Source: Verrucomicrobiia bacterium (lineage in GTDB: Bacteria > Verrucomicrobiota > Verrucomicrobiia > Verrucomicrobiales > Akkermansiaceae). From it: DNA of 36,630 nt. Below are positions 2,466 to 8,892 of the stretch, piece by piece (positions within the stretch are counted from its first letter, which is position 1; every line of letters starts with the position of its first letter). Position numbers and translations under genes: made by a program. The notes beneath the pieces were generated by a model. It was not told the DNA's origin. It ran no database searches and was given only the letters and a program-made list of their open reading frames with translations. The stretch lies in NCBI GenBank assembly GCA_030432565.1, contig JAUIGV010000045.1:1-36630 (forward strand), read 5' to 3'.

Positions 2466-3764
2466 TTAGGCTTTGGATTCGAGACCGCTTAGGCTGCCCG
2501 TGCTCGAACCAAAGCGATCAATCTCAAGTCCTGAATTTTGGAGGATGGAGAGAAGGAGGTTGGCGGCTGGAACGCGGTTGGCATCGTGGGCAGGGTAGAC
2601 TTTATGCTCTCCGTGTTTGAATCCGCCCCCGGCGAGGACGAGGGGGAGGTTCTTCGTCTGGTGGGTGCCGGCGGCCATCCCGCAACCGTAAAGAACCGAC
2701 GTGTGATCGAAGAGAGTGCCCCCATTGATGGGGTCTTCCTGCGCCTTGAGGAGATCGATGAGATAGGACATCATTTCGATCTGATAGCCTTCGATTTTTT
2801 TCAAGGCGGCCACGGGATCTGGTCGTTCGCCGTGGTGGGAAAATCCATGGTAGCCTCCGTTGAGTCCGAAGTCTCCGTTGGCGAATCCGGAGGACAGGGT
2901 GATGGCGCGGGTCGAGTCGGTTTGCAAGGCAAGGGCGATGATCTCGATGGTGGCCTTGAGCTGCTCTGCGGTGCCGTTGCCGGGATTGGGTTCCGGGACG
3001 TCGGTCTTGGGCTTGGGCCGGTTGATCCAGGGCTCCTGTTGGATAATTTTCTTCTCCAGCGTGCGGACCGAATCGAAGTATTCCTCAAGCTTCTCCTGAT
3101 CTTGTTTGCCGAGTTCCTTGTTGAGTGACTTGGCCTGATCGCGCACCACATCGAGGATGCTGCTGTGGCGTTTTAAGTTTTCCGCCGAGGTCGCTTTTGT
3201 TTCCGCCGAGTCTTCGAAAAACATGGCGCGATAGGCGGCGCGGAGATCGATGGAAGGAACCTGAACGCCGGTGCGGGTGAAACTGAGAAGGTTTTTTTCG
3301 CGGCATCCGAGGGTCAGCGAGGAAAAACGGGTGGCGGCGCCGTGGTGCTCGGCGAGTTTTTGATCGAGGCTCATGTTCCCCTCGGCGTAGTTGTGCGCGA
3401 GGATGGGTCGCACGCCACTGAGGAGAACGGGCACGCCCTGATGTCCGCCGGTGAAGCCGTGATCGAGGTTTTGAAAAACGGTGAAATCCTCGCGGTGTTT
3501 CTTCAGGGCCTTGAGGGTTTCCGGCATTTCGTAGTTTCTTCCGGCCTGAGAGGGATCGGGAAAGAAGGCCTTTTGATAGACGCCGTAATTGTTGGAGAGA
3601 CAGACGAATCGTTTAACGGGTTTCTTGCCACGAGTGGCCGCGCGTCCGACCGGAACCATCGCTTCAAGCATGGGCAGGGCCATGGCCACTCCGGTTCCGC
3701 GAAGGAGGGTGCGTCGGTTCAAAGTCGTCTTCACTTGGGGCAATATGACGGGGATTTTGCTCAC
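2466..3764 (-). CDS. DUF1552 family secreted protein
   Basis: This 432-residue protein starts with GTG. A twin-arginine-like leader (NRRTLLRGTGVAMALPMLEA, from about residue 16) suggests Tat export. The body has features typical of DUF1552: FVCLSNNYGVYQKAFFPDP, VLLSGVRP, SLTLGCRE, an SLDQKLAEHHG segment, and a C-terminal TSVLYGCGMAAGTHQTKNLP block. DUF1552 proteins are almost always encoded next to DUF1592 proteins, as here, although their molecular role is not established. Length and domain content are normal for the family. The order (DUF1552 first) is the reverse of what I recall as the more common arrangement. The gene is divergent from the FAD oxidoreductase, with 91 bp between the starts. 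Family assignment is confident; function is unknown. Confidence 0.92.
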   Translation of the reverse strand: MSKIPVILPQVKTTLNRRTLLRGTGVAMALPMLEAMVPVGRAATRGKKPVKRFVCLSNNYGVYQKAFFPDPSQAGRNYEMPETLKALKKHREDFTVFQNLDHGFTGGHQGVPVLLSGVRPILAHNYAEGNMSLDQKLAEHHGAATRFSSLTLGCREKNLLSFTRTGVQVPSIDLRAAYRAMFFEDSAETKATSAENLKRHSSILDVVRDQAKSLNKELGKQDQEKLEEYFDSVRTLEKKIIQQEPWINRPKPKTDVPEPNPGNGTAEQLKATIEIIALALQTDSTRAITLSSGFANGDFGLNGGYHGFSHHGERPDPVAALKKIEGYQIEMMSYLIDLLKAQEDPINGGTLFDHTSVLYGCGMAAGTHQTKNLPLVLAGGGFKHGEHKVYPAHDANRVPAANLLLSILQNSGLEIDRFGSSTGSLSGLESKA

Positions 3765-3855
3765 TTTGAATCTAAAACTTGAGGATTTCCGGGCACTGTG
3801 GCTTTTCGTGTCGGTTTGGGTGAAGTAGGATGGGTCCAGTCAAGCAAGACAATCC

Positions 3856-5112
3856 ATGTCCAATTCCGAACAAACCGACCGACGCCAATTTATCCAGAAA
3901 TCGATTTTGGGGGGGATGGCGATCTCCTCGACAAGTGAGGTATTTGCACAAAGCGAGGAGGGGGCGAAGGAATCCGACCTAACCCAGGAGGTGGATGTCC
4001 TCGTGGTGGGAGGAGGAACTGCGGGTAATATCGCGGCGATTCAAGCGGGGCGGGCGGGAGCCAAGACTCTGATTATCGAGAGGGGAGCTCAGTTGGGTGG
4101 CACGACTACGACGGGTGGGGTGGCTTTTCCCGGGCTTTTTGACGCCTGGGGGAAGCAGATTATTGCCGGGATAGGGTGGGAGTTGGTGAAGGAGTGCGTG
4201 GAATTGGATGGCGGAAAATTTCCAAACTTCGCCAAGGTGCCCAAGCGGCATTGGCAGAACCAGGTTTTCGTGAATCAGTTTTTGTATGCCATTCTTGCGG
4301 AAGAGAAATGTGAGCAGGCCGGAGTAAAAATTGCTTATCATGAATTTCCGCAATCGGTTCAAAAGGCCGGGATAGGTTGGGAGGTGGTTTGCGTGGGGTT
4401 TGGGACCCGGCGACGGGTTCGGTGCAAGCAGATCATCGACTGCACCGGTGGGGCGGAAGTGGTCGGCATGATGGGATTGCCTCGCCTCCGGGAAGAGGAA
4501 ACGCAACCTGGTTCGATGCTCTTCAATTTGGGAGAGGCGAACAATCCCGGACACCATCAACTCCACCGGCTTTATGTTCACGGAGCTGACTCGTCGAATT
4601 CACGAACGGTGACGCTGGCCAATCTTACCGGACGTAGATCGGTTCTGGAAAAGGTGCGAAAGGAAAAGAAGCGCCTGATGCACCTGCAACCTGAAACGGG
4701 ATTTAGAGAGAGCTTCCGCATTGTCGGGGAAACCATGATCACGGTGAACGACTACACCAATGGCCGGCTATTTAGGGATGCTGTTTCCAATGCCTTCTAC
4801 CCGGTCGACCTTCATACCAAAAGCGGGGTGAAGCCGAAGCCGCTCAAACCTGGCACCGTTCCCACTATTCCGCTGGGAGCTCTCGTGCCCAAGGGAAGTC
4901 AAAATCTCATGGTGGCGGGGCGTTGTGTTTCGAGCGACCGCCTGGCAAACTCCGGACTTCGTGTGCAGGCCTCTTGCATGGGGATGGGGCAGGCCGCAGG
5001 GGTTACGGCTTCGTTGGCAGCAGCTCAAAGTACGACGCCTCTCGAAGTTCCGCTTGGAGAGATTCATCGTGAGCTTGCAAAGCACGGAGCGATTCTTCCC
5101 GGAAAGTCATGA
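3856..5112 (+). CDS. Tat-exported FAD-dependent oxidoreductase (FAD_oxidored family)
   Basis: The product has 418 residues. The N-terminus carries a twin-arginine signal (DRRQFIQKSILGG, residues 8-20) and a likely cleavage site near VFAQ, so a folded flavoprotein is probably exported. A Rossmann dinucleotide-binding motif VVGGGTAGNIAA is at 50-61, with an acidic residue (E75) at the end of strand 2, followed by LGGTTTTGGVAFPG, typical of the FAD_oxidored (PF12831) group. The C-terminus has the usual second FAD contact (LMVAGRCVSSDRLANSGLRV). The substrate is not evident. The stop codon overlaps the ATG of the next gene by 4 bp (ATGA), so expression of the two is coupled. A second, only distantly similar member lies at 19008. 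No Shine-Dalgarno precedes the ATG. Confidence 0.9.
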   Translation: MSNSEQTDRRQFIQKSILGGMAISSTSEVFAQSEEGAKESDLTQEVDVLVVGGGTAGNIAAIQAGRAGAKTLIIERGAQLGGTTTTGGVAFPGLFDAWGKQIIAGIGWELVKECVELDGGKFPNFAKVPKRHWQNQVFVNQFLYAILAEEKCEQAGVKIAYHEFPQSVQKAGIGWEVVCVGFGTRRRVRCKQIIDCTGGAEVVGMMGLPRLREEETQPGSMLFNLGEANNPGHHQLHRLYVHGADSSNSRTVTLANLTGRRSVLEKVRKEKKRLMHLQPETGFRESFRIVGETMITVNDYTNGRLFRDAVSNAFYPVDLHTKSGVKPKPLKPGTVPTIPLGALVPKGSQNLMVAGRCVSSDRLANSGLRVQASCMGMGQAAGVTASLAAAQSTTPLEVPLGEIHRELAKHGAILPGKS

Positions 5113-6044
5113 AGTATGGCGAACCCGGCAAGGCGCGGCGAAGAATCACTTCGTTGCTGAGCATGCTCACTTTTGTCGTGATGGCAGTGACGGGAGCGCT
5201 GGCGTTTTTCCTTCCCTTTTCGATTGAGATCGCAGGTCTTCACTCCCTGATGGGGTTTGTTTTTGTGGCCTTTATTGCGGTGCACGTCCTGAACAACAGT
5301 CGACAATTAAAAGGGTATCTCCGGAGTCGGGTTGTTGGCTTGGCGCTAGCGGTGACGGTTGGGTTGGGTGTGGTTTTCTTTTTTCAACCGGCTCCCGTGA
5401 AAGCTGTTTTGGGATTGAGTCAAAACCTTGGTCCGGCCCTCGATCGTTTCGAAGTCCAGGAAGACGGCATGGTTTACCACTATGCCCCGTCGGATGATTA
5501 CCGGATGGAATTGACCGTCAAAACCGGTCCGAACTTTGATCCGGAAGATCCGCCCGAGATTGCGATCTGGCTCGAGAATCAAGGCGACTACCATATTAAA
5601 ACCCTGCTGGGGCCTGCTGGGATCAGCGACGATCTTCCCTACTGGTCATTTAAAAGACGAGGGTGGGAAAAGGCGAAAGAAGAAGCAGGGAATGAAGAAG
5701 AGATCGATGCCGTTTCGACTCCGACTCCCAATGGATCCTTTGATCCGGCCGACTACATCCTTCCGGCTGATCCTGACACCTCGACACCCTACAAGCTTCT
5801 CATCGAGATCAACCAAAGCGGAGATGCGTACGGGGAATACGACGACCAACCGTCACTTGTTTACTCGGTTGAGATCGACAATTTACGCCCGGCTACTTTT
5901 CAGATTCTCGATCTTGTTGGTTATCCCAAGCGCGAAGACGAAGACGGCAAAGAAGCCTGGTCACTCTATTTCGTGGATGAAGGTTTTGGGTCGGCGTTAA
6001 AACTGGTCGACAGCGTGCTGCTTCGGGTCGAGCGGGGATTGTAA
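5109..6044 (+). CDS. Membrane protein with DUF4405-like helices and DUF2271-like extracytoplasmic domain
   Basis: The product has 311 residues. Three hydrophobic helices lie at about 13-36, 42-61 and 75-93. Helix 2 carries H45 and H59, 13 residues apart, the spacing of haem b ligands in cytochrome b-type anchors and DUF4405 proteins. The remainder is soluble and resembles DUF2271: IAIWLENQGDYHIKTLLGP, then LPYWSFKRRGW, then an EIDAVSTPTPNGSF segment that parallels the DAVTGATP motif of that family, then YKLLIEINQSGDAYGEY. The gene overlaps the upstream FAD oxidoreductase by 4 bp. My inference is a membrane electron-transfer partner for that exported flavoprotein. Against this, only three helices and one His pair are seen, so haem binding is not certain. 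Confidence 0.75.
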   Translation: MKYGEPGKARRRITSLLSMLTFVVMAVTGALAFFLPFSIEIAGLHSLMGFVFVAFIAVHVLNNSRQLKGYLRSRVVGLALAVTVGLGVVFFFQPAPVKAVLGLSQNLGPALDRFEVQEDGMVYHYAPSDDYRMELTVKTGPNFDPEDPPEIAIWLENQGDYHIKTLLGPAGISDDLPYWSFKRRGWEKAKEEAGNEEEIDAVSTPTPNGSFDPADYILPADPDTSTPYKLLIEINQSGDAYGEYDDQPSLVYSVEIDNLRPATFQILDLVGYPKREDEDGKEAWSLYFVDEGFGSALKLVDSVLLRVERGL

Positions 6045-7884: not shown

Positions 7885-8892
7885 TTGAGGTCAGTTTGGA
7901 CCAGGATGTTTCTTTTGCTTTTGCTCTCTTCGCCGACCGTCTTTGCTGAGACCAATCCGCTGCTTGAGCGGCCAATTCCCAGTGATGGAGGGCCGACCAT
8001 TGTTGAGTGCACCCTCGGGATTCTTGATATCGATGGCATCAGCAATGTGGACCAAACTTTCACCGTGAATGTATTCACCCTTTTCAGGTGGCAGGATCTG
8101 CGACTTCGTCATGATGGGCCGGGAAATGCCCGGATGGAAATCACCGAGATCTGGCATCCCAATTTGATGTTTCTCAACCGTCAGCGGATCTGGGCTTCGT
8201 TGGATAAGATTGCTGAAATTACTCCGGAGGGTGAAGTAACCTTGAGGCAACAATTTTGGGGCGACTTCTCGCAACCCATGGACTTACGTGATTTTCCCTT
8301 CGACCAACAATCATTTGAAATTCATATCGTTTCTTCCGATGCGGGAACGACCGATAAATTGAAGTTGGTGGAGAATGTCGACATCCCTTCGTTTCTGCCC
8401 GGGAAGTATTCGGTTCCCGATTGGGAAGTCGTTGGTTTTACTGCAGAAGGCAAGGCGCTGAATGTGCCAAATGTTGGGGAGGTTTCGTCGTTTAAAATGA
8501 CCTTCACCGCCGACCGAATCTCAAACCACTACCTGGTAAAGGTGATGGCGCCGCTCCTCATGATTGTCCTCCTTTCGCAGGTGGTGTTCTGGCTGAGCCC
8601 ATCGGAGGGCGGTAGTCAGCTTGGTGTTGCGGTGACTTCGTTCCTCACCGTCATCGCCTACCACGTCGCTTTAAATTCCAAGTTGCCGCAAATCTCGTAT
8701 TTGACCAGGTTGGACGTCTGCGTGTTCTGGGGGACCAGCTTGGTTTTCCTCTCCATGATCGAGGTCGTGATTACCACGGGGTTGGCTCAAAAGGGTAAGA
8801 AAGGCATGGCTCAAAAATTAGACCGCAAGTGTCGTATCATCTTTCCCAGTCTGACGATTCTCGGCGGTGTCTATGCCATCTTCTGGTTTTAG
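7885..8892 (+). CDS. Prokaryotic pentameric ligand-gated ion channel (Cys-loop receptor superfamily)
   Basis: The product has 335 residues and is predicted to form a homopentameric ion channel. A signal peptide (MFLLLLLSSPTVFA) precedes a beta-rich extracellular domain (about 22-213) with WHPNLMFLN and the superfamily signature RDFPFDQQSFEIHI at 135-148. The cysteines that define the eukaryotic Cys-loop are replaced by Q130 and F144, as in bacterial homologues. Four transmembrane helices follow: M1 (215-237), pore-lining M2 (about 245-263, then LPQISYLTR), M3 (278-299) and M4 (319-335). The M3-M4 loop is very short, the bacterial form. The 9' pore position appears to be Leu254. The track-like TTG start at 7885 gives a basic n-region; an ATG at 7906 is an alternative. 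The stop overlaps the convergent lyase gene by 4 bp. The ligand is unknown. Confidence 0.92.
   Translation: MRSVWTRMFLLLLLSSPTVFAETNPLLERPIPSDGGPTIVECTLGILDIDGISNVDQTFTVNVFTLFRWQDLRLRHDGPGNARMEITEIWHPNLMFLNRQRIWASLDKIAEITPEGEVTLRQQFWGDFSQPMDLRDFPFDQQSFEIHIVSSDAGTTDKLKLVENVDIPSFLPGKYSVPDWEVVGFTAEGKALNVPNVGEVSSFKMTFTADRISNHYLVKVMAPLLMIVLLSQVVFWLSPSEGGSQLGVAVTSFLTVIAYHVALNSKLPQISYLTRLDVCVFWGTSLVFLSMIEVVITTGLAQKGKKGMAQKLDRKCRIIFPSLTILGGVYAIFWF

Follow-up and report, generated by a model that had tools for sequence, protein, structure and literature searches.

Which ions would pass through a bacterial channel whose pore entrance departs from those of the few bacterial channels studied so far? The question is raised by a gene in the 36,630-nucleotide stretch of Verrucomicrobiia DNA analysed here (the window), which encodes a subunit of the pLGIC superfamily. 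Its pore entrance is nearer to that of the animal chloride channels than to that of the studied bacterial relatives, so that different ions may pass. Of the four solved bacterial pLGICs compared here (GLIC, ELIC, sTeLIC and DeCLIC), two commonly stand in for human receptors as models, and all four have an acidic filter and a short linker between the membrane helices M1 and M2. A large bacterial clade in which the linker is long and the filter uncharged would supply Cys-less bacterial models of anion-type pores, and would make it possible to ask whether anion selectivity preceded animals.

The gene is a 335-residue open reading frame at 7885..8892 on the plus strand, as the first-pass annotation had it, with a TTG start and a possible alternative in-frame ATG at 7906. 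Residues 1-21 (7885..7947, immediately before position 7948) are probably a signal peptide: with the TTG start, two arginines come ahead of a hydrophobic stretch, which fits what is expected of one, and residues 2-14 are helical in the structural model. The extracellular ligand-binding domain (residues 22-213, 7948..8523, from the model and from Pfam PF02931 over residues 28-151) includes the Pro-loop FPFDQQ (residues 137-142, 8293..8310). It is followed by the M1 helix (residues 214-236, 8524..8592, with Pro223 and a terminal Trp236), the M1-M2 linker up to position 0' (residues 237-245, LSPSEGGSQ, 8593..8619), the M2 pore helix (residues 239-264, 8599..8676, placed by register and model), M3 (residues 275-302, 8707..8790) and M4 (residues 306-333, 8800..8883), which in the model starts three residues after M3; all lie on the plus strand.

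The protein is a genuine member of the superfamily, and it is complete. Both Pfam domains are present, Neur_chan_LBD (E 7.9e-17, 61.8 bits for a cut-off of 26) and Neur_chan_memb (E 3.6e-12, 47.5 bits for a cut-off of 28.1), and the best PDB sequence match (E 7.1e-30) is far beyond chance. The NCBIfam channel models TIGR00860 (E 2.5e-36) and NF033918 (E 7.4e-32) also match, both with scores under their curated cut-offs, which marks a distant member. A single-chain AlphaFold2 model, for which the window protein was aligned with 47 relatives (48 sequences in all), has a mean pLDDT of 92.0 and a pTM of 0.80, and consists of the beta-sandwich and the four helices delimited above. The full architecture that had been read from the sequence, with its short M3-M4 loop, is thus borne out. 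Superposed on solved structures the model reaches Z scores of up to 28.7 over 311 residues; with the GABA-A beta3 homomer (9fev) the values are Z 28.6, 311 residues and rmsd 2.3. In the Foldseek list 49 of the 50 matches are GABA-A or glycine receptors, the remaining one being a GLIC mutant, and the 50 matches listed by VIA are animal anion receptors or GLIC-GABA-A chimeras; nicotinic receptors and ELIC are absent among the matches listed by either. Such lists track deposition frequency, and a difference between rows of less than Z 1 amounts to a tie; they are not counted as a test.

Family hallmarks point the same way. The available text of PMC4795631 gives [F/Y]PxD with an invariant proline as the pLGIC motif. 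The window protein has it as F137, P138 and D140, and the proline and aspartate are conserved in all 59 rows of the clade described below. Arg211 before M1, Trp180 in beta9, Pro223 in M1 and Pro268 between M2 and M3 are also present. The Cys-loop pair is missing, as had been noted: the only cysteines, at 42, 279 and 316, do not flank F137-P-F-D140.

With Leu254 taken as 9', the residues along the pore are Glu241 at -4', Gly243 at -2', Ser244 at -1', Gln245 at 0', Gly247 at 2', Thr251 at 6', Ala258 at 13' and Val261 at 16'. Recomputation returned the same residues at 9', 2' and -2' as the first-pass annotation, which had aligned the protein with GLIC through a shared LP. That register needs a two-residue gap against GLIC; it is gap-free against the membrane domains of glycine and GABA-A receptors, a point that was missed at the time and is more telling. 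Glu241 (8605..8607), which had been placed two positions outward from -2', does stand at -4', but this site lies toward the cytoplasm. No other charge occurs between -6' and 20', and no other acidic residue between -6' and 23'. The selectivity-filter region from -2' to 2' (Gly243, Ser244, Gln245, Leu246, Gly247; 8611..8625) is uncharged and lacks the acid of the cation-selective pore type. The usual pore-facing positions of M2 run without breaks, so that an interrupted pore-lining face, the finding named in advance as counting against a channel, is absent at the sequence level.

Linker length can be expressed as the span from the M1 tryptophan to 9'. The span is 17 residues in the window protein, as in the glycine alpha1 and GABA-A alpha1 receptors, 16 in nAChR alpha7, and 15 in each of GLIC, ELIC, sTeLIC and DeCLIC. 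At the head of the PDB sequence matches stand two chimeras that join the GLIC extracellular domain to the membrane domain of a glycine or GABA-A receptor; both align without gaps across the linker, whereas GLIC itself needs two gap positions. Judged by this shared linker length, the useful comparison for the pore is with the animal anion channels.

Relatives were collected by a profile scan of genome_contigs, which yielded 94, the best 80 being kept as loci (Verrucomicrobiota, Pseudomonadota, Myxococcota, Acidobacteriota, Bacteroidota, Ignavibacteriota and others), and by sampling further genomes from the window's phylum, the Gammaproteobacteria and a Thermodesulfobacteriota group. A first residue set was reduced from 112 frames (score at least 150) to 96 unique sequences, of which 95, all but L108, are readable at 9'. 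The set used for the span, drawn from 163 frames that scored at least 90 and covered at least 180 profile positions, has 124 unique members, counting the window protein. Of these 124 homologues 122 have a span of 17; the other two have 15 and 19. This sample is weighted toward relatives of the window protein. A less biased one comes from 398 Pseudomonadota genomes searched by the extracellular domain only, the genome at the centre of that set having been picked because it contains a channel: the family occurs in seven of them, and the seven genes with a readable linker, of eight, have a span of 17 in five cases, 15 in one and 24 in one. The long span is therefore common in the bacteria sampled. 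GLIC, ELIC, sTeLIC and DeCLIC, all short, appear as the exception in a sample leaning toward kin of the window protein.

The tree was built without the linker columns from 90 of 137 rows, thinned at 62% identity after removal of the two frames of the broken L175. It places the window protein in a clade of 59 of the 90 rows, with support of 99 in the quick tree and 99/99 in a careful tree whose bootstrap had not settled. The protein thus belongs to a large bacterial clade that contains none of the four solved bacterial channels; these, the glycine receptor and nAChR alpha7 all fall outside. Inside it the span is 17 and -1' is uncharged in 59/59 rows, and an acid within -2' to 2' occurs in 2/59, against 24 of the 29 bacterial rows outside, the four solved channels (4/4) among them. 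The other five outside rows also lack a filter acid, so an uncharged filter occurs beyond the clade as well. The pore of the window protein is typical of its own clade and unlike GLIC, ELIC, sTeLIC and DeCLIC, and the "altered" pore entrance for which the gene was first singled out is not supported, given the spans of the 122 homologues and the -1' residues of the 59 rows.

Position 0' is most often Gln in the clade (41/59 rows: 30/39 and 11/20). In the available text of Jaiteh et al. (PMC4795631) a basic residue stands at 0' in 79% of sequences over the superfamily, and is the only residue there conserved in prokaryotes and protists. Gln at 0' is found in 67 of the 124 homologues, none with an acid at -1'; Arg is the 0' residue of every one of the 15 homologues whose -1' is acidic (Asp). 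In the unthinned set 7 of 95 rows combine Pro at -2' with Arg at 0', and one clade member, L089 from Haliea, reads PARVG from -2' to 2', identical to the glycine receptor.

In a separate bacterial clade (L015, L009, L013, L120 and their kin) the linker is long and -1' is usually Asp, followed by Arg at 0' (SDR/GDR). This clade is probably cation-type, and it provides a natural control for the window's clade. At M2 15' the commonest residue is Arg (65/95 rows), and the window protein has His260; in known structures this position faces the subunit interface and not the pore. L003 and L008 are two channel genes on one contig (G041:C126), about 2 kb apart, and L058 has its channel genes as two open frames close together; such pairs perhaps form heteromers.

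What an uncharged filter entails can be gauged from mutants. ELIC and GLIC are cation-selective, and ELIC admits small anions once its -1' glutamate is removed (E229A; PMC3119659, in the excerpt available). Anion-selective animal subunits carry Pro-Ala in place of the -1' Glu (PMC4055736, likewise in excerpt). In the accessible parts of PMC8011927, a -1' change alone gives slight anion selectivity in 5-HT3A, A-1'E alone makes the glycine receptor cation-selective, and deletion of one linker residue with A-1'E reverses the selectivity of a GABA receptor; in alpha7 experiments the -1' change alone was without effect, Val13'Thr and a Pro insertion being also needed. An acidic filter is described, in the part of PMC9897478 available, for all known cation-selective pLGICs. 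The window pore is without it, which suggests a pore that is anion-permeable or poorly selective, and the earlier proposal that selectivity could differ from GLIC and ELIC is a fair one, since their filter acids (Glu at -2' and at -1', respectively) are missing here. Two points count against reading too much into the filter. Jaiteh et al. state, in the text available, that this region is in general no predictor of selectivity in prokaryotes (PMC4795631); and sTeLIC and DeCLIC carry their acid at 2', so that the place of the filter acid can move.

The preferred reading, to which a probability of about 0.5 may be given, is that the window protein forms a homopentameric channel without an acidic cation filter and is anion-permeable or poorly selective. 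The subunit would be exported and would assemble with four copies of itself; by analogy with the family, the pore, with its gate at Leu254, would open when the extracellular domain senses some ligand or condition. The narrow cytoplasmic filter is uncharged and is carried in a longer linker of glycine-receptor length, and, with no acidic ring there, anions should enter, giving a pore that would be anion-preferring or poorly selective. Anion permeability as such, selective or not, would have roughly even chances on the filter residues, and true anion selectivity is more doubtful. Of the anion-type features, the span of 17 and the absence of an acid at -1' (Ser244) are shared; the Pro-Ala-Arg/Lys of -2', -1' and 0' is replaced by Gly-Ser-Gln, and the hydrophilic 13' (Thr) by Ala258. 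Because Pro at -2', Arg at 0' and Thr at 13' are absent and Glu241 is kept, chloride selectivity is a testable hypothesis and not a result.

Glu241 is also the basis of the most serious competing explanation, in which the channel is cation-selective and an outer ring at -4' serves as the filter. As the only charge in this part of M2, Glu241 could form such a ring by analogy with nAChR alpha7, sTeLIC and DeCLIC, where -4' is also acidic, and DeCLIC has been called cation-selective from two acidic rings at its cytoplasmic mouth, a selectivity that its authors consider not yet clearly validated (PMC9897478, in the part available). Against this, -4' is acidic in just 19 of the 59 clade rows, so that Glu241 is neither a clade trait nor a conserved filter, and the window protein has no inner acid such as GLIC, ELIC, sTeLIC and DeCLIC possess; a cation channel of this kind is on balance improbable. 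It is distinctly unlikely that the pore serves chiefly uncharged or organic solutes, as the uncharged, small side chains at -3', -2', -1' and 2' (Gly at both -2' and 2') might suggest, for Leu at 9' and Ala at 13' make an ordinary gate, and the glycine receptor, likewise with Gly at 2', yet passes chloride. A barely conducting sensor with a vestigial pore, signalling by conformation or scaffolding a membrane complex, would suit the statement that up to 2016 the pLGICs of unicellular organisms had no known biological role (PMC4795631, in the text available) and the phospholipase-D-family genes adjoining some relatives, but it is very unlikely given that Thr251, Leu254 and Thr255 in M2 and Pro268 beyond it are invariant in the 48 aligned sequences, window protein included, as they would be in a working pore.

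An anion-permeable or poorly selective pore thus being preferred, a more far-reaching version may be put forward tentatively: the window protein and its clade would be naturally anion-selective, the first such prokaryotic channels as far as the searches go, the glycine-receptor-type linker would predate animals, and the clade would perhaps be kin to the stock of the inhibitory receptors. Among the literature matches listed, represented by the openings of abstracts and parts of some papers, no anion-selective prokaryotic pLGIC is reported. The AU test does not reject a tree that groups the 59 rows with the glycine receptor (p 0.418), a result that does not show this grouping either, and the PARVG of L089, the animal signature letter for letter, fits this version. 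Descent of the animal anion receptors from the window's clade is unsupported, the animal rows being long branches and only two animal receptors being included.

The stimulus is not readable from known sites, since the site residues of GLIC, ELIC and the glycine receptor differ. Proton gating of the GLIC type is unlikely: Glu35, described as the key proton sensor of GLIC (PMC5760087, in the part available), corresponds to Gln57 in the window protein and to Gln in 59/59 clade rows, and His235 corresponds to Val256. Amine gating of the ELIC type is unlikely as well. If the ELIC site is taken to comprise Glu131 and Phe133 in loop B, Phe188 and Tyr175 in loop C, and Tyr38, then Glu131 is replaced by Val149, Phe133 by Ser151, Phe188 by Val200 and Tyr38 by Phe64, Tyr175 falling in an alignment gap. 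What we take to be the loop D arginine of the glycine receptor, R65, corresponds to Leu66.

Neighbouring genes in the window give no operon role, with no adjacent gene on the same strand and nothing that suggests a ligand. The channel gene stands alone on the plus strand, between a LamG protein gene and a DHDPS-family gene, both on the opposite strand, and its 3' end overlaps the latter tail to tail by four bases. The window further encodes an L-arabinonate-dehydratase-type protein (NCBIfam), LamG proteins, FAD oxidoreductases and a thiamine-pyrophosphate enzyme, among others; a 311-residue frame at 5109-6044 on the plus strand is without Pfam or NCBIfam match. Near relatives L029, L030 and L031, the last two from one genome, are 58-60% identical to the window protein. 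In these three and in L032 and L044, five relatives belonging to Verrucomicrobiota and Halieaceae, a phospholipase-D-family gene adjoins the channel gene: a domain scan finds PLDc_2 at L029:4095-5627, L030:2709-4448, L031:4111-5616 and L032:1231-2784, with the PLDc active-site motif also in L031 and L032, and similarity alone places the gene of L044 at about 2481-4064 on the minus strand. The family is matched in 8 of the 176 locus records, several of which are duplicates and many of which have short flanks. A search of the window for it gave no match; a homologue (34% identity) lies on a different contig of the same genome. In L029:1647-6787 genes for DUF3299, an Ion_trans_2 ion channel, the pLGIC, the phospholipase-D-family protein and DUF389 follow one another on a single strand; L030 again has both DUF3299 and DUF389, and L031 has DUF3299.

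The gene is patchily distributed. It is single-copy in its own genome (no other match at E <= 0.001) and is matched in 6 of 58 genomes, own included (1/26 others of the genus), and, across the phylum, in 17 of 387 genomes, again counting its own. Plasmid matches are six Azospirillum records, about 21% identical to the window protein; viral contigs gave just two short, weak matches, to residues 218-254, and a single-protein scan of genome_contigs gave 35 pattern stretches, none of them a relative.

Set beside known systems, the window protein shares with sTeLIC and DeCLIC its bacterial origin and the acid at -4', and differs in their span of 15, their acid at 2' and their separate clade in the tree. 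ELIC, the amine-gated channel of Erwinia/Dickeya, has the same architecture with Leu at 9' and Ala at 13', but its span is 15 instead of 17, its -1' and 0' residues are Glu and Arg instead of Ser and Gln, and its amine site is unmatched. GLIC shares the whole architecture, the Cys-less Pro-loop and the short M3-M4 loop, and among natural PDB chains GLIC-type sequences (phmmer E about 1e-27) rank slightly above the best listed GABA-A chain (alpha2, 2e-26); its M1-M2 span is two residues shorter, and Glu at -2', Glu35 and His235 stand where the window protein has Gly243, Gln57 and Val256. The glycine and GABA-A receptors share the span of 17 and the uncharged -1', and the glycine receptor also Gly at 2', Thr at 6', Leu at 9' and Thr at 10'. 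Pro at -2', Ala at -1', Arg at 0' and Thr at 13' of the glycine receptor have no counterpart in the window protein, nor do the Cys-loop cysteines of the glycine, GABA-A and GluCl receptors (family knowledge, and the available text of PMC4795631).
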